Notes under the pieces: generated by a model
What the model was told of the DNA's origin: nothing
Databases searched by the model: none
Seen by the model: only the letters and a program-made list of their open reading frames with translations
Made by a program: the position numbers and the translations under genes
Assembly: GCA_009377385.1 (NCBI GenBank)
Contig: WHUD01000011.1
Span: 1-58,033 of the forward strand
Length of the DNA stretch: 58,033 bases
Reading direction: 5' to 3'
Origin: Actinophytocola sp.
Lineage (GTDB): Bacteria; Actinomycetota; Actinomycetes; Mycobacteriales; Pseudonocardiaceae
Part shown: positions 1-34,462 of the stretch, piece after piece
Position numbering within the stretch: the first letter of the stretch is position 1
Layout of the letters: each line of letters starts with the position of its first letter

Positions 1-621
1 CACCTCAATCTCGCGACGTTCATCTTCACCCGCACGCCGTATGACCCGAACGCCCTGCGCCATCTGCGGCAGACCGACGTCGACGCCAGCGACGGTGACA
101 CCGCGCGGCACGTCGCCCCAGTTGACAAGCACGTCAGCGAGGTAGGTGAGAACCAGCGCGGCCATCACGGCTCCGGTGATCATCATGGCCCTGCCGATGC
201 CGGAGCGCACCTTCTCGCCGGTCGGCTGGTTCTGCTGCGGGGGCGAAACCGGCCTGGTGATCGTGGTGGTCGCGAACTGGTCAGGGTCGCCTTGGCCGCC
301 AAGTCCGGGTGGCGCCGCGTCGTACGGACCTGCCTGCGGGAACTGGCCCTGGTACTGGCCAGGCGGCGGGACGAAGACGGTCGGCTCGTCTGTGACCTTC
401 GGTATGTGCTGCGTCGGTTGCGCGACCTGCTCCGTTGGCTCCGACCCCACCGGCAGGAAGGCGTCGGTCACCTGGTGCTCGGCTCCGGAATCGGCGCCGC
501 TGACCGTCGTGTTGTCGTGCTGCTGCGCGTCCCCCGCCGTTTCCGCCTGCCCCGATGGCTGGCCGGTCAGATTCCCGTTATCCGAATCCCATGCCGGCCA
601 GTAGTGCTCCTCATCGGCCAC
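1..621 (-). CDS. VanW/PG-binding-type membrane protein, N-terminal part (runs off window)
   Basis: The reading frame is open from a GTG at 621 to the left edge, giving 207 residues with no stop. GGGAGG lies just upstream of the GTG. The first ~140 residues are a Pro/Gln/Thr-rich cytoplasmic-type tail. One transmembrane helix follows (ITGAVMAALVLTYLADVLV), then VPRGVTVAGVDVG, the junction typical of actinobacterial VanW-family proteins with extracytoplasmic PG_binding_4 domains. Homologues usually continue with a second Gly and an acidic/leucine helix. Here the frame continues LPQMAQGVRVI, so the last ~20 residues may be divergent or frameshifted. It lies 14 bp downstream of the GroES-like gene and is probably cotranscribed. 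The role is likely cell-wall related, by family only. Confidence 0.55.
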   Translation of the reverse strand, partial: MADEEHYWPAWDSDNGNLTGQPSGQAETAGDAQQHDNTTVSGADSGAEHQVTDAFLPVGSEPTEQVAQPTQHIPKVTDEPTVFVPPPGQYQGQFPQAGPYDAAPPGLGGQGDPDQFATTTITRPVSPPQQNQPTGEKVRSGIGRAMMITGAVMAALVLTYLADVLVNWGDVPRGVTVAGVDVGLPQMAQGVRVIRRAGEDERREIEV

Positions 622-635
622 CGAAACCTCCCGGC

Positions 636-998
636 CTACAGATACAACCCCGTACCGTGCTCGGTACGTTCACTCGCGATCGCGTGGATGTCACGCTCCC
701 GCATGACCAGGTACGACCTGCCCTTTATCTCCACTTCAAGCTGGTCTTCCGGGTTGAAGAGCACCCGGTCATTGACCTTCACGGTGCGGACATTATTGCC
801 CACACCAAGTACATCGCCCCACATCAGACGGCGGGCGACCTGGGCCGTCGCCGGTATTACGATGCCGCCGCCGCTGCGTCGCTCGCCGTCGTCGGCCGTC
901 ACTCGCACCAGCACACGATCGTGTAATAGCTGTATTTCCAGCTTGTGGTCGTCGGGCGCCAGTCCAGGTTCAGACACGGCGGCAATCGTACTGGTCAC
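636..998 (-). CDS. GroES-like (Cpn10-fold) protein
   Basis: A 120-residue protein starting at GTG 998. After a ~20-residue leader it shows the Cpn10 pattern: LHDRVLVRV, then a Gly-rich mobile-loop-like segment (RRSGGGIVIPATAQ), then the GDVLGVG / VKVNDRVLFNPED turn, ending in YLVMRERDIHAI. That is the full-length co-chaperonin fold. No groEL is nearby, and the gene sits between a large beta-solenoid membrane protein and a VanW-type protein. It is therefore probably a divergent paralogue, not the housekeeping groES. Whether it works with GroEL cannot be told from the sequence. Confidence 0.78.
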   Translation of the reverse strand: MTSTIAAVSEPGLAPDDHKLEIQLLHDRVLVRVTADDGERRSGGGIVIPATAQVARRLMWGDVLGVGNNVRTVKVNDRVLFNPEDQLEVEIKGRSYLVMRERDIHAIASERTEHGTGLYL

Positions 999-1022
999 CT
1001 CGACCAGGTGGCGCAGTGGCCG

Positions 1023-3413
1023 CTATTGCCGCCGTAGCATCCTGGTCAGGCCCGCCGCCACCGTCGTCGCCAAGATCCAACCCGTTGCGGTGAATCCGGT
1101 GGCGACCCACTTGTCAATCCCGCCGGTGTGCCATCTCCCCTTGTTCCCGAAGTCCACGATCGGCACAAGCAGGTCGACGGTGTAGAGCACCGGGTTCCAC
1201 TCAAGGCCGGTGTCGTCGGCGTTGACGAGGCAGCGCGGACCGCTCACCGTGTAGCGCGGGTCGTGGATGCACGGATCGGGCAGCAGCCCGAACCACAGGC
1301 TGCCAGCGACAAGCAGCAGCACCAGCCAGCCGAGCGCACGGGTCGGCCGGTAGCCGTAGCCGACGACGGCGCGTTGCAGCCAGCTCCACAGCCACACGCC
1401 GGGCCCCATCAGCCCGGCGCCCTTGCGCAGCGCCTCGTAGCGATACTGCTGCTTGCGCAGCAGCACCGTCGATGCGTGTTCTTCGTTGCCGCTTGCCCGC
1501 AGCATGGCGGCTAGCTGGTCGTACGGGCCGGGCCGGTAGCGCCGCATCGCGTGCCGCAGCAGTGCGATGCGGTCGTGGACCTGGTCGTCGCGTTCCAGGT
1601 CGATTGGGGTGTGCAGCGCGTCGTAGCGGAACTCCTCAAGCTCGAGACCGCCGCTCGCCTGCCACAGCGCCACGTTGTCGTCCAGCGTCGCGCAGCGCGC
1701 CCTGCGCAGGACCACCGACCCGGCCGGCGGCTCGTGCGGGGTGAGCACGAACTCGTCCGCGATGACGTCGCTGGCGTCGAGCGCAACTCCCCTGACGAGG
1801 CTGCGGCCGTCGATACCCGCGGCCCTGGCCTGCCGGGACTCCGGCACGGACTGCAGCACCGCCCCAGCGAAGCTGATCCTGCGGCCCACCTTGGCACCGT
1901 CGAGCGTGACGCCGCCCGCCGCGGTGAACGGTTTCGCGCCGTGGGCGGTGAAGACGAGGTCCCTGCCGACAGACGCCGTCCGCAGGTCGACCGAGTAGCT
2001 GCGGGTGGTACGCAGCGTCGGCGACGTCAGCTCGGCCCCGAACAGCTCGATCGATCCGCCGACCTGGATGCCCTGAAGCTGGACCGTGCCGTCGATGGCG
2101 GTGTCCGCGAGCTGGACGTTGCCGGACACCTGGGAGCGGCGCGCGGAGAAGACGTCCCTGCCCGCGTGAGTGAAGGTGGCGTAGCGGGCGAGCAGGTTGC
2201 CGCCGACGGTGATGTCGGCCAGACGCAGCTGCCCCTCCGTGACCAGCCGCGTCGCCTGGATGTCGCCGGAGATCTCGCTGCCGTCGATGTGCAGCGCCCT
2301 GTCGTACTGCGGCACCTGCTGCTCCCTGCGCCGCACCGCGATCTCGGCGTTGGCCAGCCGCAGCGAGCCGCCGATCACGGCGTTGACCATACGAACGGTG
2401 CCATCGGCGCGGAAGCCGTCGCCGCAGATCAGGTTGCCGTCGAGCCGCATCCGGTCCGCGACGAGCGAAGGCCACGGGTCGATCGACGGGTCGCCGGTAT
2501 GCATGGCGTCGCGCCACTCCTCGATCGCGACATCGCCGCCGGGGTTGACCATCAGCCGCGCGCCGCGCATCACGAGGTCGCCGTCGATGTGGGCGCTCTG
2601 CACCGACACCATGCCCCTGGTTGAGAACCGCTGCTGGGTGTCGCCGACGCGGCGCTTGCCGTTCTCCGTCTCGCACAGCATGCTGCCGCCGATGTGCGCG
2701 CCCATCGCGTTCAGCGCGAGCCCGTGCGGGTTGTGCAGTCGCGCGCCGGAGAGGTTGACGTTGCCGCCTGTGCGCAGGCCGGGCAGCCTGACCTCGCCGT
2801 TGGTGTGCAGCCGGTAGGCCAGCAGCGCGCCGGACACCGAGAGCCGGTCGGCCTGGATCGCCTTGCCCTCCCGGTAGTCGATGCTGCTCCTGCTCAGCAC
2901 GACGGAGCCCTCGACGACGGCGTCGGTGAGCACCACGGCGGCGTCCGGCATGCCAGGTTCCTTGCGGGAGCCGAGCGCGAGGCTGGTCTGCGGCTCGTCG
3001 GAGCCGGCAGGATCGAGGTGGACGTGACTGCGCAACAGCCTGACGTCGTTCTTGCACTCAAGGTTGCGCGCCTTGAGCCCAGGCAGCCAGCAGCTCAGGA
3101 AGGCAAGCCCGAGCAGCCTTGACTCCCTGACGTCTGGCTGCTGCTCGAACCGGCAGTTCTCGAACCGCAGTAGGAAGTCGAGGTCGGCCCCGCGCAGGTC
3201 GAGCACGCCGGTGATGTAGCTGTCCTTGACGCTGAACGTCGGCGAGTTCGTTGCCGCGGCCCGCCTGCGCCACAGCCCGCCGGACTCCGGCTCGATGAGC
3301 TGCTTGACCAGGTCGGCGGCCTTGACCTCGTAGCGCAGATCGGGACCGAGCTTGGCGTCGAAGGCCGCCGCGTCCCGGTCGTCCTCCTGCTGGGCGATGT
3401 TCTCCCCCGGCAT
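1023..3413 (-). CDS. large beta-solenoid-like protein with two C-terminal TM helices
   Basis: About 796 residues from ATG 3413, which has GAGGGGA at good spacing; a TTG one codon upstream is also possible. Roughly residues 60-560 consist of irregular repeats built on patterns such as V-GG-L-L-A-I and IDGTVQLQGIQVGGSIEL, the look of a bactofilin or pentapeptide-like right-handed beta helix. A helical segment rich in Arg and Leu follows (~600-680), then a TM helix (~690-712), an extracytoplasmic loop with two Cys, and a second TM helix (~769-790) ending at MLRRQ. Similar actinobacterial proteins are sometimes labelled membrane-associated oxidoreductase, but no redox motif is visible. It lies 28 bp after the ABC transporter ATPase gene, in the same direction. 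Function unknown. Confidence 0.72.
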   Translation of the reverse strand: MPGENIAQQEDDRDAAAFDAKLGPDLRYEVKAADLVKQLIEPESGGLWRRRAAATNSPTFSVKDSYITGVLDLRGADLDFLLRFENCRFEQQPDVRESRLLGLAFLSCWLPGLKARNLECKNDVRLLRSHVHLDPAGSDEPQTSLALGSRKEPGMPDAAVVLTDAVVEGSVVLSRSSIDYREGKAIQADRLSVSGALLAYRLHTNGEVRLPGLRTGGNVNLSGARLHNPHGLALNAMGAHIGGSMLCETENGKRRVGDTQQRFSTRGMVSVQSAHIDGDLVMRGARLMVNPGGDVAIEEWRDAMHTGDPSIDPWPSLVADRMRLDGNLICGDGFRADGTVRMVNAVIGGSLRLANAEIAVRRREQQVPQYDRALHIDGSEISGDIQATRLVTEGQLRLADITVGGNLLARYATFTHAGRDVFSARRSQVSGNVQLADTAIDGTVQLQGIQVGGSIELFGAELTSPTLRTTRSYSVDLRTASVGRDLVFTAHGAKPFTAAGGVTLDGAKVGRRISFAGAVLQSVPESRQARAAGIDGRSLVRGVALDASDVIADEFVLTPHEPPAGSVVLRRARCATLDDNVALWQASGGLELEEFRYDALHTPIDLERDDQVHDRIALLRHAMRRYRPGPYDQLAAMLRASGNEEHASTVLLRKQQYRYEALRKGAGLMGPGVWLWSWLQRAVVGYGYRPTRALGWLVLLLVAGSLWFGLLPDPCIHDPRYTVSGPRCLVNADDTGLEWNPVLYTVDLLVPIVDFGNKGRWHTGGIDKWVATGFTATGWILATTVAAGLTRMLRRQ

Positions 3414-3441
3414 CAACGTCCCCCTCGTTGTGCGTGCCCGG

Positions 3442-4209
3442 CTAGCTTGGCGCGGCGGCCTCGTCGGCGTGGGTCGGGTTCAGCACCCGGTGCAGGAACA
3501 TCTTGGTCCGCTCGTGCTGCGGGTTGCCGATGACCCGTGCCGGTGCCCCCTGCTCGACGACGACGCCCTCGTCCATGAACAGCACGACGTCGGCCACCTC
3601 GCGGGCGAACTGCATCTCGTGCGTGACGACGAGCATCGTCATGCCCTCGTCGGCGAGCTGGCGCATCACGCTGAGCACGTCGCCGACCAGCTCGGGGTCG
3701 AGCGCGGACGTCGGCTCGTCGAACAGCATCACCGCAGGGTCCATCGACAACGCGCGCGCGATCGCGACGCGCTGCTGCTGGCCGCCGGAGAGCTGCGCGG
3801 GGTACTGCTTGGCCTTGTCCGCGACGCCGACCTTTTCCAGGTTGCGCATCGCGACCTCGGCCGCCGCCCGTTTGCCGCGCTTGAGCACCCGCCGCTGCGC
3901 GATGGTGACGTTGTCGAGTGCCGACAGGTGCCCGAAAAGGTTGAACTGCTGGAACACCATGCCGAGCTTGCGGCGGGCGGCGTCGATGTCGACGTCGATG
4001 TGGGTCAGCTCGGCGCCGCCAACGAAGACCTGCCCCGCAGTTGGCTGCTCAAGCAGGTTCACACAGCGCAGCAGCGTCGACTTGCCAGAGCCTGACGGGC
4101 CGATGACGCACACCACCTGGCCCGGCTCCACGGTGAAGTCGATGCCCTTGAGCACCTCGAGGTCGCCGAACGACTTGTGCAGTCCGACGAGTTGGACGGC
4201 ATGGGTCAT
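3442..4209 (-). CDS. polar amino-acid ABC transporter ATP-binding protein
   Basis: A 255-residue ATPase of the GlnQ/HisP family. It carries Walker [11 protein letters not shown]-loop MVFQQFNLF, signature LSGGQQQR, Walker [14 protein letters not shown] and the switch His in VVTHEM. It energises uptake of a polar amino acid with the permease and binding protein encoded just upstream. The ATG at 4209 overlaps the permease stop as TGATG, which sets the start and implies translational coupling; longer in-frame extensions would only read into the permease gene. GlnQ or GluA assignments are plausible, but the substrate is not fixed by sequence. Confidence 0.93.
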
Positions 4210-5051
4210 CACACCCGCCCCCTCTTCTGCTTCGCTTCCAACTTGCGGACCACGTACCCGAGCGGAACCGTCAGGCACAGGTAGAAGAAGCCCGCCAGGA
4301 TCATCGGCGTCGAGTTCCCGGTTTGCGTCGACAGCGACTCGCCGAACTTGAATAGCTCGTAGCCCGACAGCGTGAAGCCGATCACGAACACCAGCGACGA
4401 GTCCTTGAACAGCAGGATCAGCTCGTTGGTCAGCGGCGGGATCACGATCCGGATCGCCTGCGGGATGATGATGCTGAACGTCGCCCTGCCCTGCGACATG
4501 CCGAGCGACCTGGCGGCCTCCGCCTGGCCCCTCGGCACCGCCTGGATGCCTGCCCGGAACGTCTCGGCGAGGTAGGCGGCGCTGACGAGGCCGAGCGCGA
4601 GCGCGACGGTGCCGTACGGGTCGTGCGGCATCTCGAAGCCCTCGAAGGCGATCGGCACGCCGAAGCCGAGGATCATGAACACGACGATCGCGGGCAGGCC
4701 ACGGAAGATCTCGATGTAGATCAGCGCGACCGCCCGGTACGGCATGACGTCCGACAGCCGCATCAGCGCGACGACCAGGCCGAGGAAGAACCCGAGCACG
4801 TAGCCGGACACCGTGTAGATGATCGTGTTCTTCAGCCCGACGGTGATGATGCCGGGAAACGCCTTCTTCGCCTCGTCGACGTTGAGGAAGACGTGCTGGA
4901 TGGACTTCCAGTCCGCGATGAGCACGACCACCGCGATGACGACGGCGAACACCGCGTACTGGATCGCCAGGCTGATTTTCTTGCGCTTACGTGGGCTGAG
5001 GCGGGCCCGCGGCGCGGGTCCCGCCTCAGCGACGGTGCCATTGGTGGTCAT
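4209..5051 (-). CDS. amino-acid ABC transporter permease (HisM/GlnP family)
   Basis: A 280-residue inner-membrane permease. A basic cytoplasmic N-terminus is followed by five or more hydrophobic helices. The HAAT-type EAA loop lies at about residues 170-195 ([20 protein letters not shown]), contacting the ATPase. A single permease gene accompanies one binding protein and one ATPase, so the transporter presumably uses a homodimer of this subunit. It starts 7 bp after the binding-protein stop and its TGA overlaps the ATPase start. Confidence 0.92.
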
Positions 5052-5057
5052 CGGGCG

Positions 5058-5912
5058 TTAGGAACCACTTTCGGTTCCGGTCGGGGTCTTCTCCGGCGCC
5101 TCACCGATCCACTCCTCGTACGACTTCGCCCAGGTGCCGTCCTTGAACGCCTGCTTGAGCGACTCGTTGACCTGGTTGAGCAGCTCGGTGTTGCCCTTCT
5201 TCACCGCGTAGCCGTACTGGTCGCCGGTGTTGATCTTGTCGACGACCTCCCAGCCCTTCGCGATGTCCTCCTTGTTCTTCAGCCAGTCGAGCACCGTCGG
5301 CAGGTCCTGCAACACGACGTCGACCTGGTTGGCCTGCATCGCCTGCACCTGCAGGCCGGCGTGGCGGAAGACCTGCGGCGAGAAGCCCTCCGACTCGGCG
5401 TAGTCGAGGCTGGTGGTGTCGGCCTGCACGCCGAGGGTGAGGTTCTGCGACTTGACGTCGTCGAGGCTCTTGACGTCCGAGCCCTTCTGCACGACGAGGG
5501 CGAGGGTCTCGTCGAAGTACGGCACGGTGAAGTCGAGGTTCTGCTTGCGCTCCTCGGTGATCGTCATGCCTGCCGCGGCGACGTCGCACTTGCGCGCGTT
5601 GAGCGCGGCGCCGTTCTTGATCTGCGCGAAGTCGACGTCGATGATCTCCTGCTTGACGCCGAGGTCCTTGGCGACCTCGTCGATCATGTCGACGTCGAAG
5701 CCGACGACCTTGCCGCTCTGGTCCTGCGACTGGAACGGCGGGTACGGCAGGCTGGTGCACGTGGTCAGCACGCCGTCGTTGACCATTTCGACGTTGCTGC
5801 CATTGCCCTGCCCCGTGTCACCGCTGTCATCGCCACCGCACGCCGCCGCTGTCAGTGCTAGTGCGGCCGCAGGAAGCAGGGCAAGCCTTGTGAGCTTGGA
5901 TCGACGTGCCAC
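5058..5912 (-). CDS. amino-acid ABC transporter substrate-binding lipoprotein
   Basis: A 284-residue extracytoplasmic solute-binding protein of family 3. A basic start plus hydrophobic stretch ends in the lipobox LTAAAC at Cys25, followed by GGDDSG, so it is anchored by lipidation. The mature part has the SBP_bac_3 layout, YPPFQSQDQSGKVVGFDVDM then CDVAAAGMTITEERKQ. The GTG start at 5912 has a GGAG site about 8 bp upstream. It is the first gene of the transporter operon and its promoter must lie in the 149-bp gap shared with the end of the M20 peptidase gene. Confidence 0.93.
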   Translation of the reverse strand: MARRSKLTRLALLPAAALALTAAACGGDDSGDTGQGNGSNVEMVNDGVLTTCTSLPYPPFQSQDQSGKVVGFDVDMIDEVAKDLGVKQEIIDVDFAQIKNGAALNARKCDVAAAGMTITEERKQNLDFTVPYFDETLALVVQKGSDVKSLDDVKSQNLTLGVQADTTSLDYAESEGFSPQVFRHAGLQVQAMQANQVDVVLQDLPTVLDWLKNKEDIAKGWEVVDKINTGDQYGYAVKKGNTELLNQVNESLKQAFKDGTWAKSYEEWIGEAPEKTPTGTESGS

Positions 5913-6061
5913 GATGTAACTCCATCTCTGGGTGCTGTCCGATCGAGTGATCGCATCCTGCCACCCATCTCACGTGGCGAGAAGCCCAGGGCGGGCCAAA
6001 CGCGCACGGTGACCAACTTCGTAACCTCGACGTGACTCATTTGGGACCCGCGATGCTCCGC

Positions 6062-7480
6062 TTAGGCGCAGGCGTGCGCGTCAAGCAGGTGCGCGACGGC
6101 GGCCGTCACCCTGCGGGCGTGTGGCAGGTGCAGCCACTCGTCGGGGACGTGCGCGTTGGAGTCCGGCCCGAGCGCGCCGGTGACCAGGAACTGCGCGTCA
6201 GGGTACTTCTCGCCGAGCAGGCCCATGAACGGGATCGACCCGCCTAGCCCCGCTCCCCGCCACGGCGCGTCGAAGACGTCCTTGCTGACCGCGTCCAGCC
6301 CGCGTTCCAGCCACGGCGCGAGGTCGGGGGCGTGCCAGCCGTTCGCATGCTCCATGTCGGTGAGCTCGACCGTTGCGTTGTAGGGGACGTCGGTGCTCAG
6401 CGCCCGTTCAATCGCCGCGACGGCCGCCGCCGCGTTCGCCGTCGGCGGCAGCCGGAAGCTCAGCGCAAGCGTCGATGACGTCCTGAGCACGTTGCCCGCG
6501 TTGTCCGGGGTGGGGAAGCCGTCCGCGCCGATCACCGACAGCGTCGGCCGCCAGCTGGTGTTCAGCAGCAGCTCCACCTCGTCGTCCGACATCGGGCGGA
6601 CGCCGGGCGCCAGCGGGAAGCTCCGCAGCACCGAGCCCGGCGCCGACGCCACGGTCTGCTCCGCCTCCTGCCGCCGGTTCTCCGGGATCGACACCGACAG
6701 CTCAGGCAGCAGGACCTCCCCGGTGCCTTTGTCCTCGATGCGGTCGAGCAGCGACCGCATCACCCGGAACGAGCTCGGCACCGCGCCGCTGGCCATGCCG
6801 GAGTGCTGCGCGGTCTCCAGCACGGTCACCGTCACGCACACCTGCGCCAGCCCACGCAGGCTGGTGGTCAGCCACAGCCGCTCGTAGTCGTTGCCGCCGG
6901 AGTCGAGGCAGACGACGAATGTGACGTCGCCGAGCCGCTGTTCGAGGTGCTCCAGGTAGGCGGGCAGGTCCGGGCTGCCGGACTCCTCGCCGGTCTCGAG
7001 CAGCACGATCGCGCGGGCGTGCTCGCCGCCGTTCGCCCGCACGGCCTCAAGTGCCGCGGTCGCCGCGTATCCGGAGTAGCCGTCGTCTGCGGCGCCCCTG
7101 CCGTAGAGCCGGTCGTCGCGTAGCACCGGTTGCCACGGGCCGAGGCCGTCCGACCAGCCGCCGAGTGGGGGCTGCTTGTCGAGGTGGCCGTAGAGCAGCA
7201 CGGTGCCGTTGTCCACGCCGCCAGGCGTCGCTGGGACGTCGAGCAGCAGCACGGGGGAACGGCAAGGCAACTGGACGACGTCGATCTCGGCGCCGTCGAT
7301 CTTCCGCGCGCTGAGCCAGGACTTGACGTGCTCGATGGCTCTTGCCAGGGCGCCGGTCTGCTCCCAGTCCGGGTCGAAACCCGGTGACAGCGCTGGGATT
7401 TCGATCAGCCCGCTGAGGCTCGGCAGGACGTCGTCCCGCCAGGTCTGGTTCACCGTCGATGTCACTGCCGCTGCGTCCAC
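6062..7480 (-). CDS. M20-family metallopeptidase (dipeptidase-like)
   Basis: A 472-residue cytosolic hydrolase of the M20/M28 clan, probably a dipeptidase or acyl-amino-acid hydrolase. Zinc-site motifs are visible: LLYGHLDKQPP (His, Asp), GRGAADDGYSG (bridging Asp), LETGEESGSPDL (catalytic and metal Glu), CLDSGGND and a late His in DSNAHVPDEWLHLPHA. The dimerisation (lid) domain lies between the last two. GTG 7480 gives a normal family length; the open frame extends to 7609 but that part is Arg-rich and unlike the family. It faces the bkd operon and is followed by the amino-acid transporter, which fits peptide/amino-acid use. Confidence 0.88.
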   Translation of the reverse strand: MDAAAVTSTVNQTWRDDVLPSLSGLIEIPALSPGFDPDWEQTGALARAIEHVKSWLSARKIDGAEIDVVQLPCRSPVLLLDVPATPGGVDNGTVLLYGHLDKQPPLGGWSDGLGPWQPVLRDDRLYGRGAADDGYSGYAATAALEAVRANGGEHARAIVLLETGEESGSPDLPAYLEHLEQRLGDVTFVVCLDSGGNDYERLWLTTSLRGLAQVCVTVTVLETAQHSGMASGAVPSSFRVMRSLLDRIEDKGTGEVLLPELSVSIPENRRQEAEQTVASAPGSVLRSFPLAPGVRPMSDDEVELLLNTSWRPTLSVIGADGFPTPDNAGNVLRTSSTLALSFRLPPTANAAAAVAAIERALSTDVPYNATVELTDMEHANGWHAPDLAPWLERGLDAVSKDVFDAPWRGAGLGGSIPFMGLLGEKYPDAQFLVTGALGPDSNAHVPDEWLHLPHARRVTAAVAHLLDAHACA

Positions 7481-29869: not shown

Positions 29870-30610
29870 TCAGTTTGGGCTCAACCACTGCCCGGTGTGC
29901 GGATCGATTTTGGCCACACCCTCGACGTTCGTTGTGACCCCGCTCACTCCGTCGTCGTTGGCCGCCGACGCGATGTCACCGCCGACGCCCTGTGCCCCAC
30001 TGGTCTGGGTGGCGCCCGTGTCGACGCGCTCCCACGTGCCGTCGCCGGTGTGCTTCAGCGTGGCCGTGCTGCCGTCGCTCTCAACGACGAGCGCGTAGTC
30101 CGCCTCCCCGTCGCTGTTGGCGTCGGTGAAATAGAAGGTGTTGCCAGCGTCGTCCTTGGTGACGGCGGTGTCCTTCACGCCGTCATCGTTGGTGTCGATC
30201 GTCGCGGGGCCGACCTCGACCTCCCCCTGTGGCATGTCGGCCGTCATCGGCTTGTCGGTGCCGGGAGCGCTCTCGCTGGTCTGGGTGTCCGTCGGCGTCG
30301 TGGTGTCCCCCTGGCCCTGCGCGGCGGGGTCGACGGCGATCCACTCGCCGGACTCGTCGTCGAACCGCGCCTCGGCGATGGTGTTGCCCTGTTCGTCGGC
30401 CTCCATGTAGACGTCGGCGTCGCCGTCGCCGTCCTCGTCCATGTAGGCGCTGTGGGTGCCGTCGGCGTTGTCGACGATCGCCGTGTCGACGTGGCCGTCC
30501 GAGTCGAGGTCGGCGTTCATCTCGACGTCGTACTCCTGCCCGTCAACGGTGACGGCCACGTCCTCGCTGGTCACCGTCTCGTCGCTGCCGCCGGACTCAT
30601 CCACGTACAT
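29870..30610 (-). CDS. Asp-rich protein with calcium-loop repeats (DUF6802-like)
   Basis: A 246-residue, very acidic protein with no signal peptide or TM helix. Four EF-hand-like DxDxDG loops are visible: DLDSDGHVD, DEDGDGDAD, DTNDDGVKD and DANSDGEAD. They are separated by a Thr/Gln/Asp-rich linker. It ends VAKIDPHTGQWLSPN. Such loops usually bind Ca2+; DUF6802 is my best family guess. It is the last gene of the dynamin-GrpE-dynamin operon, 64 bp downstream, so a shared transcript is possible but not certain. Confidence 0.72.
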   Translation of the reverse strand: MYVDESGGSDETVTSEDVAVTVDGQEYDVEMNADLDSDGHVDTAIVDNADGTHSAYMDEDGDGDADVYMEADEQGNTIAEARFDDESGEWIAVDPAAQGQGDTTTPTDTQTSESAPGTDKPMTADMPQGEVEVGPATIDTNDDGVKDTAVTKDDAGNTFYFTDANSDGEADYALVVESDGSTATLKHTGDGTWERVDTGATQTSGAQGVGGDIASAANDDGVSGVTTNVEGVAKIDPHTGQWLSPN

Positions 30611-30674
30611 CGCCCTGGTATCCCCTCGTGTTCACGCCCGAACGGGCACTAGCGCCAGACGTCGTCACTGAGAC

Positions 30675-32537
30675 TCACCGTAGGCCCACCCGGTTCCCCG
30701 GCACAATCAATCGCAGCGAGTCGAGCAGCGTGCGGGCGGTGTCGAGGCCGGCCGCCGCGTCCTTGAGGTGGGCGCCGACGGCGGCGAGCTGCCTGGACTT
30801 CTCCGCCGCGCTCAGCTTCAACGTTTTGTCGACCTGCTTGACCTCCGCATCGATCGCCTCGATCCGCCTGGTCACCGCCTCGTCAAGCGCCAGCGACAGC
30901 TGGTGCTCCGCCTCGATGATCTGTTCGGACACCACCTGGTCGACTGCGGACCGGGCGTCGGCGATGGCCTCGGTCAACCACGTCTTGACGTGCTGCTTGT
31001 TCGCGGCGTGCCGCCGCGTCCTGCCGATCCACCAGCCAGCGCCGAGCCCGACGACAAGCACCGGGACGGCGACAAGGCCCGCCGTCGCCAGCGTCATCGC
31101 GCCGCCGGTGGCCAGGCTCAGCCCCGTCCCGCTCGCGCCGATGCCCATGTAGGTGCCCATCCCGACCATGAGCTTGTCCTCGGCGGTCGGGGGCCGCTTC
31201 TCCGGCGGGCGCAGCATGACCGGCTGTCCGCCGCCCCGCGTGAACTGCGCCCGGATCACCCGCAGCTCGTCCTCGCCGAACAGGTCGGCGAGCGCGTTCT
31301 CCGTTGCTTCGTTGAGCCGCTGGTCGAGTAGGACGTTCAGCCGGGAGGACACCAGTTGCAGTGCGGCCTCGACCTCCTGCGGCAGCGCGTCGAGGGTGTC
31401 GGCGTCCGCGCCGTCGATGCGCTGCCGGAACCAGGACTGGACGTCGCGCATCTGCCGCGCGACCTCGTGGGTGCAGTCGACCCGCGTGCGCTGGATCTCG
31501 CTGCGCAGTGTGAGCTGCCAACCGCGCGTTGACGACTTCCGCTCCGCCTGGAGCGCGTCGCGGCGCTGTCGCAGCGCGTCGCCCTCCGCCTCGCCGGAGT
31601 GCAGGGCCCTGCGCTCCGCGGTGAGCCGCGTCGTCTGCTCCTCGAACGCGGTGACCAGTGTGCGCAGCGTGTTCGCCGTCCGCAGCGCGTCCGCCCTGCC
31701 GATGACGGCTTCCTGCACCGCGGTCTGCAACGCGATCACGCCGGACCGTTCCCGCAGCATCGCGGCGGCGTCGTCCGACGGCGCGTTGCCCGCCATCTCG
31801 AACATCCGCGCCGACACCGGCAGGAACTCGGCGTCGGCGAACCGGGGCGCGTGTTCCGCGAGCAGCGCGGTGTTGGCGTCGAGCACCTGCCGCCAGCCCT
31901 TGAAGACGTCCGTTTTGGACAGCGCGAACAGCACGGTCTCGACCTTGTCGCTCATCCTCCGCAGGAAGCTCAGCTCGCTCGCGGTGAACGGCGCGGACGC
32001 GTCGACGACGAACAGCAGCGCGGTCGCCGACGCCGCCGCCCCGATGGCAAGCTCCCCGTGCATGGAGTCGAGCCCGCCGACGCCCGGTGTGTCCACAAGC
32101 GACACTCGCTGCAGCAGCGGGCACGGGTAGGCCACCTCGATGTAGCGCGGCGGGAGCTGATCCTCCGGCAGCTCGCTCGTCGCTGACGTCCAGTTGGCGA
32201 GTTCGGCTAGCTCGAACGGGACGGGCGGCCGCTGGGCGTAGCAGGCCTGCGCCTGGGGGGTATCGCCATGGACGAACCGCAGGTAGGTCGACGTCGCGAC
32301 CTCGGCATCCACAGGGGACAGTCCAGGGCTGGCGAGCATGGCGTTGACAAGCGAACTCTTGCCGCGCTTGGTCTCGCCAACGACGACGACGGCAGGCGCG
32401 CCATGCTGTCGCTCGCGGGTCTCACGCACCCATCCCGCCGCGTCGGCGTCGATATCGTCCAGCGTCGCGATGAGCGAGTCGCAGCCCTTCGTCGCCTTCT
32501 CGACCGGCGTTAGCTTGTCGAAGAACGCCGACGTCAC
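30675..32537 (-). CDS. dynamin-like GTPase with membrane hairpin (IniA-like)
   Basis: A 620-residue bacterial dynamin-like protein. G1 is GETKRGKSSLVNAML (~54), G3 SLVDTPGVGG (~146) and G4 ALSKTD (~207). Long helical stalk regions flank a hydrophobic hairpin at ~462-505 (GIGASGTGLSLATGGAMTLA, then LVAVPVLVVGLGAGWWIG), which would insert in the membrane. Mycobacterial IniA and Streptomyces DynA/B belong to this family and act in membrane repair or septation. Its ATG overlaps the grpE-like stop (ATGA), so it is translationally coupled to it. Confidence 0.87.
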   Translation of the reverse strand: MTSAFFDKLTPVEKATKGCDSLIATLDDIDADAAGWVRETRERQHGAPAVVVVGETKRGKSSLVNAMLASPGLSPVDAEVATSTYLRFVHGDTPQAQACYAQRPPVPFELAELANWTSATSELPEDQLPPRYIEVAYPCPLLQRVSLVDTPGVGGLDSMHGELAIGAAASATALLFVVDASAPFTASELSFLRRMSDKVETVLFALSKTDVFKGWRQVLDANTALLAEHAPRFADAEFLPVSARMFEMAGNAPSDDAAAMLRERSGVIALQTAVQEAVIGRADALRTANTLRTLVTAFEEQTTRLTAERRALHSGEAEGDALRQRRDALQAERKSSTRGWQLTLRSEIQRTRVDCTHEVARQMRDVQSWFRQRIDGADADTLDALPQEVEAALQLVSSRLNVLLDQRLNEATENALADLFGEDELRVIRAQFTRGGGQPVMLRPPEKRPPTAEDKLMVGMGTYMGIGASGTGLSLATGGAMTLATAGLVAVPVLVVGLGAGWWIGRTRRHAANKQHVKTWLTEAIADARSAVDQVVSEQIIEAEHQLSLALDEAVTRRIEAIDAEVKQVDKTLKLSAAEKSRQLAAVGAHLKDAAAGLDTARTLLDSLRLIVPGNRVGLR

Positions 32538-32953
32538 GCCGTCGTCCCTGCGGTGTAGACGGTCACGACCGGCGCGCGCAGCAGCATGTCGCCGTCGCGG
32601 AACCCGACGAGCTCGGTCTCCGCGACGGTGCCTGCCAGCGAGGCGTCCGATGTGGACACCGCGCCGCCCGCCTCGTGGCGCGCGGGGTCGAACAGCTCGC
32701 CATCAGGGCGCAGCGCACTCACCCCGACGCCCGCCAGCCCCTCCTCGATCCGCGCGACGACGCCGTCGCTGCGGGCGCGGTCCAGGGCGTACAGGCAGAG
32801 CTGGATCAGCGCGGCCCGGTCGTCGCGTAGCCGCTGGACGTCCTGCCCGCTGGTGTCGGCCGCCGCGATGAGGTGCGCCGCGATCTCGCCCGTCGGCACG
32901 TCATCGGCGTTGTCGTGCCGGTTGAACCACGCTGCCACTGCCACCACTCTCAT
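32534..32953 (-). CDS. GrpE-like nucleotide exchange factor
   Basis: A 139-residue protein. The C-terminal half matches the GrpE beta-rich head: IEEGLAGVGVSALRPDGELFDPARHEAGG then GFRDGDMLLRAPVVTVY. The long N-terminal coiled coil of true GrpE is shortened. It sits between two dynamin-like GTPases, starting directly at the stop of the upstream one (TAG-ATG) and overlapping the downstream one by 4 bp. No Hsp70 gene is in the window. It may serve a dedicated Hsp70 encoded elsewhere, or act on the GTPases; both are inference. Confidence 0.8.
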   Translation of the reverse strand: MRVVAVAAWFNRHDNADDVPTGEIAAHLIAAADTSGQDVQRLRDDRAALIQLCLYALDRARSDGVVARIEEGLAGVGVSALRPDGELFDPARHEAGGAVSTSDASLAGTVAETELVGFRDGDMLLRAPVVTVYTAGTTA

Positions 32954-34462
32954 CTATCTCTCGCGCAACTGCTGCCAGATGAGGAAATACGCCCGGTGCA
33001 CCACGTGCGCCACCCTGCTTTGCGCCGGGGTCGCGCCGAACGAGGCGAACGAACGCCACCAGCCCGCCCGCTCCAGCGCGTGCGTGGTGAGCTGCTCCCT
33101 GTCGGCATCCGGCATGCCGAGCTGCGCCCTGACGTCGGCGTTGCTGCCCACCCGCAGGACCTCCTCCGTGAGGTCGTCCGCCAGGTCGATCGCGCCCGAT
33201 GTCACCAGCGTGAGCGCTTCGAGCACCCGCAGTTGGTGCGCCTCCGGTTTGGCGAGCAGCACCTCGATCGCGTCGTGCACCTTCGCGCGCTCGGTGGGAT
33301 CCGGCGCGGAGTGGGCGAGCGCGGTGATTGACGCCAGCGCGGCCGCCGCCTTGATGCCGTCCGCCCGCGCCGCGAACACCGTGTTCAGCCGTGCCCTGAC
33401 GGCTTCGAGCCCTGATGCGTCCCCGATGGTGCGGCGCAGGTCGCCAGCGGTGATGTCCGGCTCCGCCCTGGTGGCGTCAATGCCGCACCGGACGCCGTAG
33501 AGGTCGAGCCGGTCGAGCAGCCGCGTCCTCGTCCCGGCAGGGACGTCGCAGTCCCAGCTGGTGAAGACGTCCGCCGCGAGCAGCATCGTCTCAAGCGTGG
33601 CGTCGTCCAGTTCGGACAGCGCCCGGAGCGCGTCGGCGTCCGCCGAGGTGAACCCGCCGGACTCCGCCGACTCGGCGAGCAGCCCGATCACTGGGAGGAC
33701 GTCGGCCACCTTCGGCTTGAGCGACGCCGCCTGCGCCTCGGCCAGCAGCGACGCCGCACGCCAGACGTCGCCGTCGGCGCCAGCGACCGACTCAGGGGCG
33801 ACGGTGTCCGCCTTGTTCAGCACGGCGATGGCGTTGACCGGACCGGCTTCCCTGCTGGCGGTGGCGGCGGTGAACGCGGCGAGCGCCTGCTGGTCGTCGG
33901 CCCGCACGCTCTGCGTCACCACGTACAGCACCGCCTCCGCCCCCGCGACGGCGTCCCGCGACGTGGGGTCGAGCACGGCATCGGTGCGGGCCACCGACGC
34001 CGAGTCCAGCGAGCCGAGGCCAGGGGTGTCGATCACCGTCATGTCCTTGAGGACGGCGTTGGTCAGGTACGCCTCGATGTGCGAGACGGTATCCAGGTCG
34101 ATGCCGAGTGACGCGGGGATCATGCCGTCTGCATCGAACGGCAACACCGTCGTGCTGCCGTCGGTGAGCACCACCTCGACCCGGTCCACCGTGCCGTACT
34201 CGTACCGGGTGACGAGCCGGGTGCACTCGCCGACGTCCGTCGGCGCGACCCTGCGCCCGATCAGCCCGTTGACCAGCGTGGACTTGCCCGATTTGATCCG
34301 CCCGGCCACGGCGACCTGCAACGGGGCGCCCAGCCTGCGGAGCACCTCGGCGAACCCTGCCGCCGTCGCCTGCCCGACCTGGGGTTGCAGCCTGCGGCAG
34401 AGGTTGGCGACCGACGTCGACAGCGGACCGGCGAGCGTGCCCTGCTCCGTCACTGCGGTCAC
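32954..34462 (-). CDS. dynamin-like GTPase without membrane hairpin (IniC-like)
   Basis: About 502 residues from GTG 34462, chosen because a purine-rich GGAAGGGGATGGGGGA precedes it; ATG 34486 is an alternative. G1 is GRIKSGKSTLVNGL (~57), G3 VIDTPGLGSLDS (~140), G4 VLNKAD (~213). The C-terminal half is helical and lacks a clear TM segment, so it may act as the soluble partner of the membrane-anchored GTPase two genes downstream, as IniC does with IniA. It is the first gene of the operon, divergent from the histidine kinase. Confidence 0.86.
   Translation of the reverse strand: MTAVTEQGTLAGPLSTSVANLCRRLQPQVGQATAAGFAEVLRRLGAPLQVAVAGRIKSGKSTLVNGLIGRRVAPTDVGECTRLVTRYEYGTVDRVEVVLTDGSTTVLPFDADGMIPASLGIDLDTVSHIEAYLTNAVLKDMTVIDTPGLGSLDSASVARTDAVLDPTSRDAVAGAEAVLYVVTQSVRADDQQALAAFTAATASREAGPVNAIAVLNKADTVAPESVAGADGDVWRAASLLAEAQAASLKPKVADVLPVIGLLAESAESGGFTSADADALRALSELDDATLETMLLAADVFTSWDCDVPAGTRTRLLDRLDLYGVRCGIDATRAEPDITAGDLRRTIGDASGLEAVRARLNTVFAARADGIKAAAALASITALAHSAPDPTERAKVHDAIEVLLAKPEAHQLRVLEALTLVTSGAIDLADDLTEEVLRVGSNADVRAQLGMPDADREQLTTHALERAGWWRSFASFGATPAQSRVAHVVHRAYFLIWQQLRER

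Follow-up and report, generated by a model that had tools for sequence, protein, structure and literature searches.

Bacterial dynamins are widespread and little is known about their control. Among the described systems closest to the one reported here is iniBAC of mycobacteria, whose IniA protein cuts membranes in vitro with the proposed help of IniC, according to the excerpted text of PMC6715688. In M. smegmatis a dnaK-like gene lies next to iniR (PMC5760070), and the available portion of that study proposes no function for it and mentions no GrpE-like gene. For the chaperones of M. tuberculosis, the available sections of PMC10803776 describe the GrpE beta domain as the principal site of contact to the ATPase domain of Hsp70, and the long GrpE helix, which touches the Hsp70 substrate-binding domain in the complex, as essential for refolding by DnaK. 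Paired dynamins are also known from LeoABC, as described in its abstract. We analyzed a 58,033-nucleotide stretch from Actinophytocola sp. (positions 1 to 58,033 of contig WHUD01000011.1, GenBank assembly GCA_009377385.1; hereafter the window) in which two dynamin-like GTPases, GTPase1 and GTPase2, flank a gene for a small protein predicted to consist of the head of GrpE (Table 1). The gene set recurs in many actinobacteria and, outside the family of the source organism, usually has a gene for an apparently membrane-anchored Hsp70-type ATPase nearby, an arrangement that points to a so far unstudied machine in which membrane remodeling would be controlled by ATP switching of the chaperone type. 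Each of its parts is of a known kind; we did not encounter them combined, with the Hsp70 and the GrpE reduced in matching ways, in the open-access papers searched, among which we found none tying GrpE or Hsp70 to bacterial dynamins. The association of Hsp70, GrpE head and dynamins is well supported by gene order, conservation, co-occurrence and linkage, and we assign a probability of roughly 55% to the reading that the IniA/IniC-like dynamin pair is under the control of a membrane-bound ATPase switch of the Hsp70 type, which has a GrpE head of its own.

The GTPase domains of both proteins carry the G1, G3 and G4 motifs of the dynamin superfamily (GRIKSGKS, DTPG and NKAD in GTPase1; GETKRGKS, DTPG and, as G4, SKTD in GTPase2) and match the Pfam family Dynamin_N above its cutoff of 27 bits (47.2 and 61.6 bits, respectively). 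Similarity to IniA (6j72; phmmer E value of 1e-23) runs across most of GTPase2, from residue 48 to 536, and residues 480-498 of this protein are strongly hydrophobic (hydropathy of 2.18, versus a maximum of 1.25 in GTPase1). The predicted model of GTPase1 was of moderate quality (predicted template modeling score, pTM, of 0.64) and therefore serves for fold class alone; its best Foldseek matches were BDLP, the oligomerized bacterial dynamin pair 5owv/5oxf of C. jejuni, the mitofusins and IniA. In length, GTPase1 is comparable to IniC. The pair resembles that of iniBAC in its adjacency, in its sizes (about 620 and 500 residues) and in the match of GTPase2 to the IniA structure, and differs in its order, which is IniC-like, GrpE head, IniA-like. 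No iniB-like open reading frame was seen by eye beside the window pair or among the Pfam matches of the four proteins of the cluster, with no IniB profile run. A second dynamin locus of the source genome, on contig C23, carries what appears by eye to be an iniB-like gene and a dynamin truncated where the contig ends, together with divergent genes for an Hsp70-like protein (415 residues) and a LuxR/AAA protein (826 residues) that is IniR-like by arrangement. This locus looks similar to the iniR/dnaK-like locus of M. smegmatis.

The first-pass annotation had read the gene between the GTPases as GrpE-like with a shortened N-terminal coiled coil, and structure prediction supports both points. Residues 69-132 of the product match PF01025 at 24.6 bits, just below the cutoff of 25.8, which is exceeded by relatives in L110, L158 and L159 (29.0, 32.2 and 38.4 bits, respectively). 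In the AlphaFold2 model about 35 poorly predicted residues are followed by a 24-residue helix (36-59), a 13-residue helix and a beta domain, with predicted local distance difference test (pLDDT) values of approximately 94-97 across residues 41-130. The predicted fold is that of GrpE, with short helices and a beta domain; the long N-terminal helix of GrpE is absent from the model. Foldseek ranked GrpE chains at positions 1-12, and VIA-align placed seven GrpE entries on top (Z of 8.0-10.8, with 1dkg at 10.8; next unrelated entry, 4.6), GrpEL1 superposing on the model at 2.6 Å over 93 residues. A weak likeness of PASTA domains to the beta domain (VIA-align Z of about 3) was taken as a common arrangement. 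We also rejected a misreading of the housekeeping protein as a special one, because the complete canonical grpE of the source genome lies elsewhere, adjoining dnaK on contig C554, and the GrpE-profile scores are bimodal. Across families these proteins combine a conserved head, 36-71% identical to that of the window over 20 rows and with 12 invariant columns, with varied N-termini. By hydropathy, 11 of 23 such proteins from outside the source family (L103-L126 minus L125, in which no frame was found) have a pair of hydrophobic segments ahead of the head, and the other 12, like that of the window, look soluble.

The source organism belongs to the family Pseudonocardiaceae and the order Mycobacteriales in the GTDB lineage. 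Among the best 80 of 96 relative loci found by a scan of species genomes, nearly all of which we take from their organism names to be Pseudonocardiaceae, GTPase1, GrpE head and GTPase2 follow one another in the same order in 78; the remaining two (L022 and L061) are incomplete, being cut by contig ends, and in L022, which has no GTPase2, the apparent match to it is a cross-hit. We then scored one set of 150 genomes of the order with the GTPase1, GTPase2, GrpE-like and Hsp70 profiles. GTPase1 reached at least 560 bits in 44 genomes, well apart from the other dynamin pairs of the order (next score, 308), and GTPase2 at least 586 bits in exactly the same 44 (next score, 355), while the GrpE-like protein reached at least 68 bits in 43, its remaining matches being ordinary GrpE at 30-33 bits. 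At these levels, 42 genomes hold all three genes, two the GTPases alone (G006 and G059), one the GrpE head alone (G010) and 105 none. In all 42 complete genomes the GrpE head sits between the GTPases on one strand, and in 38 of them its match is at most 300 base pairs (bp) from that of GTPase2. The first-pass annotation had made its idea of a module depend on retention of the grpE-like gene; with the gene kept in 42 of the 44 two-GTPase genomes, always between the GTPases, the idea held on this count, and the paired GTPases around it are likewise borne out by open reading frames, Pfam matches, predicted structure and the order kept in relatives. Four genomes of family f4 (G003, G019, G073 and G087) have 0.9-5 kilobases (kb) between the GrpE-head and GTPase2 matches. 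In G010 a predicted membrane protein carries the GrpE head as its C-terminal domain, and another contig holds a weaker dynamin pair together with an Hsp70-like gene. The GrpE-like protein in a record named Rhodococcus rhodnii NRRL B-16535 (L010) agrees with its Kibdelosporangium aridum counterpart (L009) at all but 3 of 136 residues, and the record may therefore be mislabeled.

We fetched the cluster from 32 genomes, including all 24 outside the source family with a GrpE-like match of at least 68 bits, and found Hsp70-family genes beside most of the clusters from outside the family. We built a profile from 16 ATPase domains, of which 14 were linked and two came from relatives in the source family, and ran it over the 150 genomes. 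In 21 of the 25 GTPase-bearing genomes outside the family, the centre of an Hsp70 match lay no more than 15 kb from that of GTPase1, against a chance expectation of 0.4 genomes from match numbers and genome sizes. The linkage exists in two arrangements, as the gene is upstream on the same strand in 13 genomes and downstream and convergent in eight. A linked gene for an unusual Hsp70, for which the first-pass annotation had proposed to look, is therefore present in most of these genomes outside the family, and this favors, of its two alternatives, the one with an Hsp70 encoded elsewhere than in the window cluster. In the source family the gene is generally unlinked. An Hsp70 match with an E value of at most 1e-80 was found in 43 of the 44 GTPase genomes versus 12 of the 106 others, and one in a stricter set (at least 480 bits) in 36 of 44 versus 1 of 106; these counts are lower bounds, the 12 best first-look candidates having been scored per genome, a number that one genome reached. 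In all three fetched genomes of one genus in which the Hsp70 is unlinked, a J-domain protein is encoded 0.9-2.4 kb from the cluster. These J-domain genes are regular-expression matches, the only ones among the frames scanned, with a Pfam check of L116 alone.

The linked Hsp70s have an ATPase domain with intact motifs, K70 and T175 being kept in 28 of 28. PF00012 scores 115.7 and 108.9 bits in the linked proteins of L120 and L108, and in these two examples the match ends at position 368 and 377 of the 599 of the profile, indicating that those Hsp70s have no substrate-binding domain. As judged by hydropathy, 33 of 36 Hsp70 frames continue beyond the ATPase domain with a proline-rich linker and then a hydrophobic segment, and of the three that do not, two are truncated. 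Compared to DnaK-GrpE, the window-type system shares the GrpE head fold and the Hsp70 ATPase motifs, whereas its GrpE is without the long helix and its partner Hsp70 is without the substrate-binding domain and has a predicted membrane segment; contact residues are altered in the partner Hsp70 and, by eye, in the GrpE head. The reductions match, as the long helix is missing from the head and the Hsp70 lacks the very domain with which that helix makes contact in the M. tuberculosis complex. In a 55-row tree, the linked proteins group with unlinked copies from the source family (30 rows, support 87/89), among which the C667 gene of the source genome falls in a family group (7 rows, 100/100). A second Hsp70 paralogue of the source genome, on contig C222, falls in a sister group (3 rows, 100/100), and the two together make 33 rows (100/99), with DnaK far outside. 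Both Hsp70s next to L126, the most divergent cluster, also fall outside these 33. The C222 gene, for a membrane Hsp70, directly follows a gene for a 1401-residue protein of the FtsK/SpoIIIE type, which we take to be EccC-like and of type VII secretion, and genes resembling by eye those of ribosomal proteins L13 and S9 lie downstream.

More distant relatives were sought in a phylum-wide set of 346 genomes, which included few members of the same order and, as listed, no genome of the source family besides the source genome. GTPase1 scored at least 560 bits in the source genome only, with 15 others at 216-284 bits, and the GrpE-like profile scored 136 bits in the source genome and at most 55 bits, the range of ordinary GrpE, in all others; among the latter is G242, in which a GrpE head lies beside Hsp70-like and dynamin genes. 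Of 19 stretches fetched around weaker GTPase matches from the phylum and order samples, 16 contain an Hsp70-family match, one of which is the housekeeping DnaK (L155) and some of which are weak (67-139 bits); no such match was found in L160, L164 and L165. Non-housekeeping GrpE heads occur in four of the 19 (L158, L159, L164 and L165, at 35-46 bits). In L158, from another class, and in L159 a GrpE-head gene shares 4 nucleotides with an Hsp70-like gene beside dynamin genes, the most direct sign that GrpE heads belong with Hsp70s. Two loci of family f8 carry an IniA/IniC-like pair in other settings, about 6 kb from the housekeeping dnaK-grpE in L155 and, in L156, divergent from an 802-residue frame whose residues 245-516 form an Hsp70 domain.

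These observations are consistent with a model in which the cluster encodes most of a membrane-remodeling machine, a dynamin pair placed under a dedicated Hsp70-type ATPase and its matching GrpE head. The Hsp70-type partner, which in the source organism would be encoded away from the cluster, would consist of a nucleotide-binding domain only and be tied to the membrane through the proline-rich linker and a transmembrane segment. Its nucleotide cycle could capture or release GTPase1, GTPase2 or both at the membrane, while the GrpE head would open the nucleotide cleft and reset the partner, so that dynamin assembly and GTP-driven scission might be clocked by ATP. Membrane repair or remodeling would be the likely output, given that IniA severs membranes in vitro with the proposed assistance of IniC (PMC6715688, as excerpted). 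We infer a contact between Hsp70 and GrpE head, nucleotide exchange, an effect on the dynamins and a role in envelope repair or remodeling. That a chaperone ATPase was turned in this manner from folding to a membrane switch, with a stripped, anchored Hsp70 and a stripped GrpE head binding and clocking the dynamins and the ATP state timing GTP-driven remodeling, we regard as a tentative proposal, somewhat short of an even chance. Should the Hsp70/GrpE pair be the controller, bacteria would have a dynamin system regulated by an ATP switch that can be tested, and Hsp70 would clearly be at work there without a substrate-binding domain. The unexplained dnaK-like gene close to iniR in M. smegmatis, and the function of iniBAC in envelope stress, could then be viewed in the same light.

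Several findings weigh against control by an Hsp70 switch. Within the source family, linkage of the Hsp70 gene to the cluster is confined to a single one of the 19 genomes, and five of the 19 have only an Hsp70 match of the C222 score class (two of the five were included in the tree and both group with C222). The copy in the source genome closest to the linked Hsp70s, C667, stops within the ATPase domain and its remainder was not found in a 15-kb stretch; the truncation could be real or an assembly fault, and the intact C222 paralogue may serve instead, given that C667 is truncated in this assembly. Outside the family, the Hsp70 is unlinked in G070, G105 and G119, and G050 has the GTPases and the GrpE head with no Hsp70 match, its cluster contig being only 4.2 kb long. 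G006 and G059 carry both GTPases and a nearby Hsp70 yet no GrpE head. The gap between the GTPase1 and GrpE genes exceeds 600 bp in 20 of 79 measurable loci; in Amycolatopsis (most clearly in L016, L031 and L053) the insert encodes, by eye, a small membrane protein and a TetR-like regulator. Because the genomes are related, Fisher values for the co-occurrence overstate independence and are only a guide. Finally, the GrpE-contact positions of the Hsp70s are mostly changed (N56 to R, Y106 to Q and Y257 to a gap, each in 28 of 28), with partial retention of E236 (17 of 28) and G32 (21 of 28), and the positions of the GrpE head that match DnaK contacts in the M. tuberculosis complex are, as mapped by eye, mostly changed or deleted. 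Judged from the aligned residues, the changes on both sides would fit a changed interface and equally a lost one.

A lost interface would suit a GrpE head that no longer serves an Hsp70 and has been taken over to bind the dynamins themselves, whether it bridges GTPase1 and GTPase2 as an adaptor or regulates their nucleotide state. The position of the head between the GTPases in every complete genome, usually close to GTPase2 and even where the Hsp70 is elsewhere, as in the source family, agrees with direct binding, as do the altered DnaK-contact residues, the two genomes with GTPases and Hsp70 in which the head is missing, and a helix (LxLCLYALDRARS) that is near-invariant within the source family. 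However, direct binding leaves aside the Hsp70 genes that lie near the cluster across families and co-occur with it, the GrpE-head genes that overlap Hsp70-like genes in L158 and L159, and the predicted beta domain, the main Hsp70 contact in the known complex, which is well kept. We therefore consider it unlikely, though the most probable of the alternatives, and retain control by an anchored Hsp70 with its own GrpE head as the preferred reading.

The GrpE fold, the canonical dnaK-grpE locus on C554 and the GTPase pair some 6 kb from dnaK-grpE in L155, a locus of another family, would also accommodate a second exchange factor for the housekeeping DnaK, co-transcribed with an ordinary envelope-stress operon of the IniA/IniC type. 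Such a role is improbable for a head without the long helix that DnaK refolding requires in M. tuberculosis (PMC10803776, in the sections available), in a genome that already has a complete canonical grpE, and for a protein whose counterparts in other families carry predicted membrane segments in 11 of 23 cases. We give about the same credence, if anything slightly less, to a dynamin-type system for defense against phage or for membrane surveillance. As in LeoABC, the dynamins are paired, and the only PADLOC matches of the cluster at an E value of at most 0.01 were those of GTPase2 to the LeoA and LeoBC models (88 and 75 bits; these models have no curated cutoff). However, the closest solved relative of GTPase2 is IniA, the 19 genomes of the source family each have a single copy of each GTPase at this score level, unlike patchy defense islands, and no genome of the family is among the no-match genomes listed, nearer kin first. 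A GrpE-like gene carried along in the operon by inheritance, with no role in dynamin function, would account for its absence from G006 and G059 and is very improbable for a gene kept between the GTPases in 42 of 44 genomes of several families, with a conserved head, its invariant columns and varied N-termini.

Table 1. Coordinates of the cluster in the window and of features at other loci.
Feature	Sequence	Coordinates	Strand	Basis and remarks
GTPase1, IniC-sized dynamin-like protein without a strongly hydrophobic segment	window	34462-32954	minus	GTG start; 502 residues; Dynamin_N
GrpE-head protein, short helical pair and GrpE beta domain	window	32953-32534	minus	139 residues; PF01025 and predicted fold
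GTPase2, IniA-like dynamin with hydrophobic, probably membrane-binding stretch	window	32537-30675	minus	GTG start; 620 residues
GTGA overlap of GrpE-head stop and GTPase2 GTG start	window	32534-32537	minus	sequence
Acidic DUF6802 protein with four DxDxDG-like loops	window	30610-29870	minus	246 residues; 64 bp downstream of GTPase2
J-domain protein	L116	14404-15672		regular expression
J-domain protein	L123	4217-5563		regular expression
J-domain protein	L124	13031-14386		regular expression
Second dynamin locus of the source genome	L097 (G000:C23)	3-7252		
Membrane Hsp70 paralogue of the source genome	L098 (G000:C222)	580-6644		
IniA/IniC-like pair near dnaK-grpE	L155	1621-13394		
Frame with Hsp70 domain	L156	2969-5377		

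At the junctions of the cluster, the stop codon of GTPase1 (TAG) directly abuts the ATG of the GrpE-head gene, as the first-pass annotation had it. The second junction is indeed an overlap of 4 bp, but its letters are GTGA rather than the ATGA given there, because GTPase2 starts with GTG. The spacing of 64 bp ahead of the acidic-protein gene was also given correctly. This protein matches DUF6802 (PF20615) at 36.4 bits, above the cutoff of 27, and its DxDxDG-like loops might bind calcium. In 71 of the 80 relative loci the fetched stretch also contains a DUF6802 gene downstream in the same orientation, in some of them 2-4 kb away. Five loci of family f4 (L104, L105, L107, L108 and L135) have two DUF6802 genes downstream.

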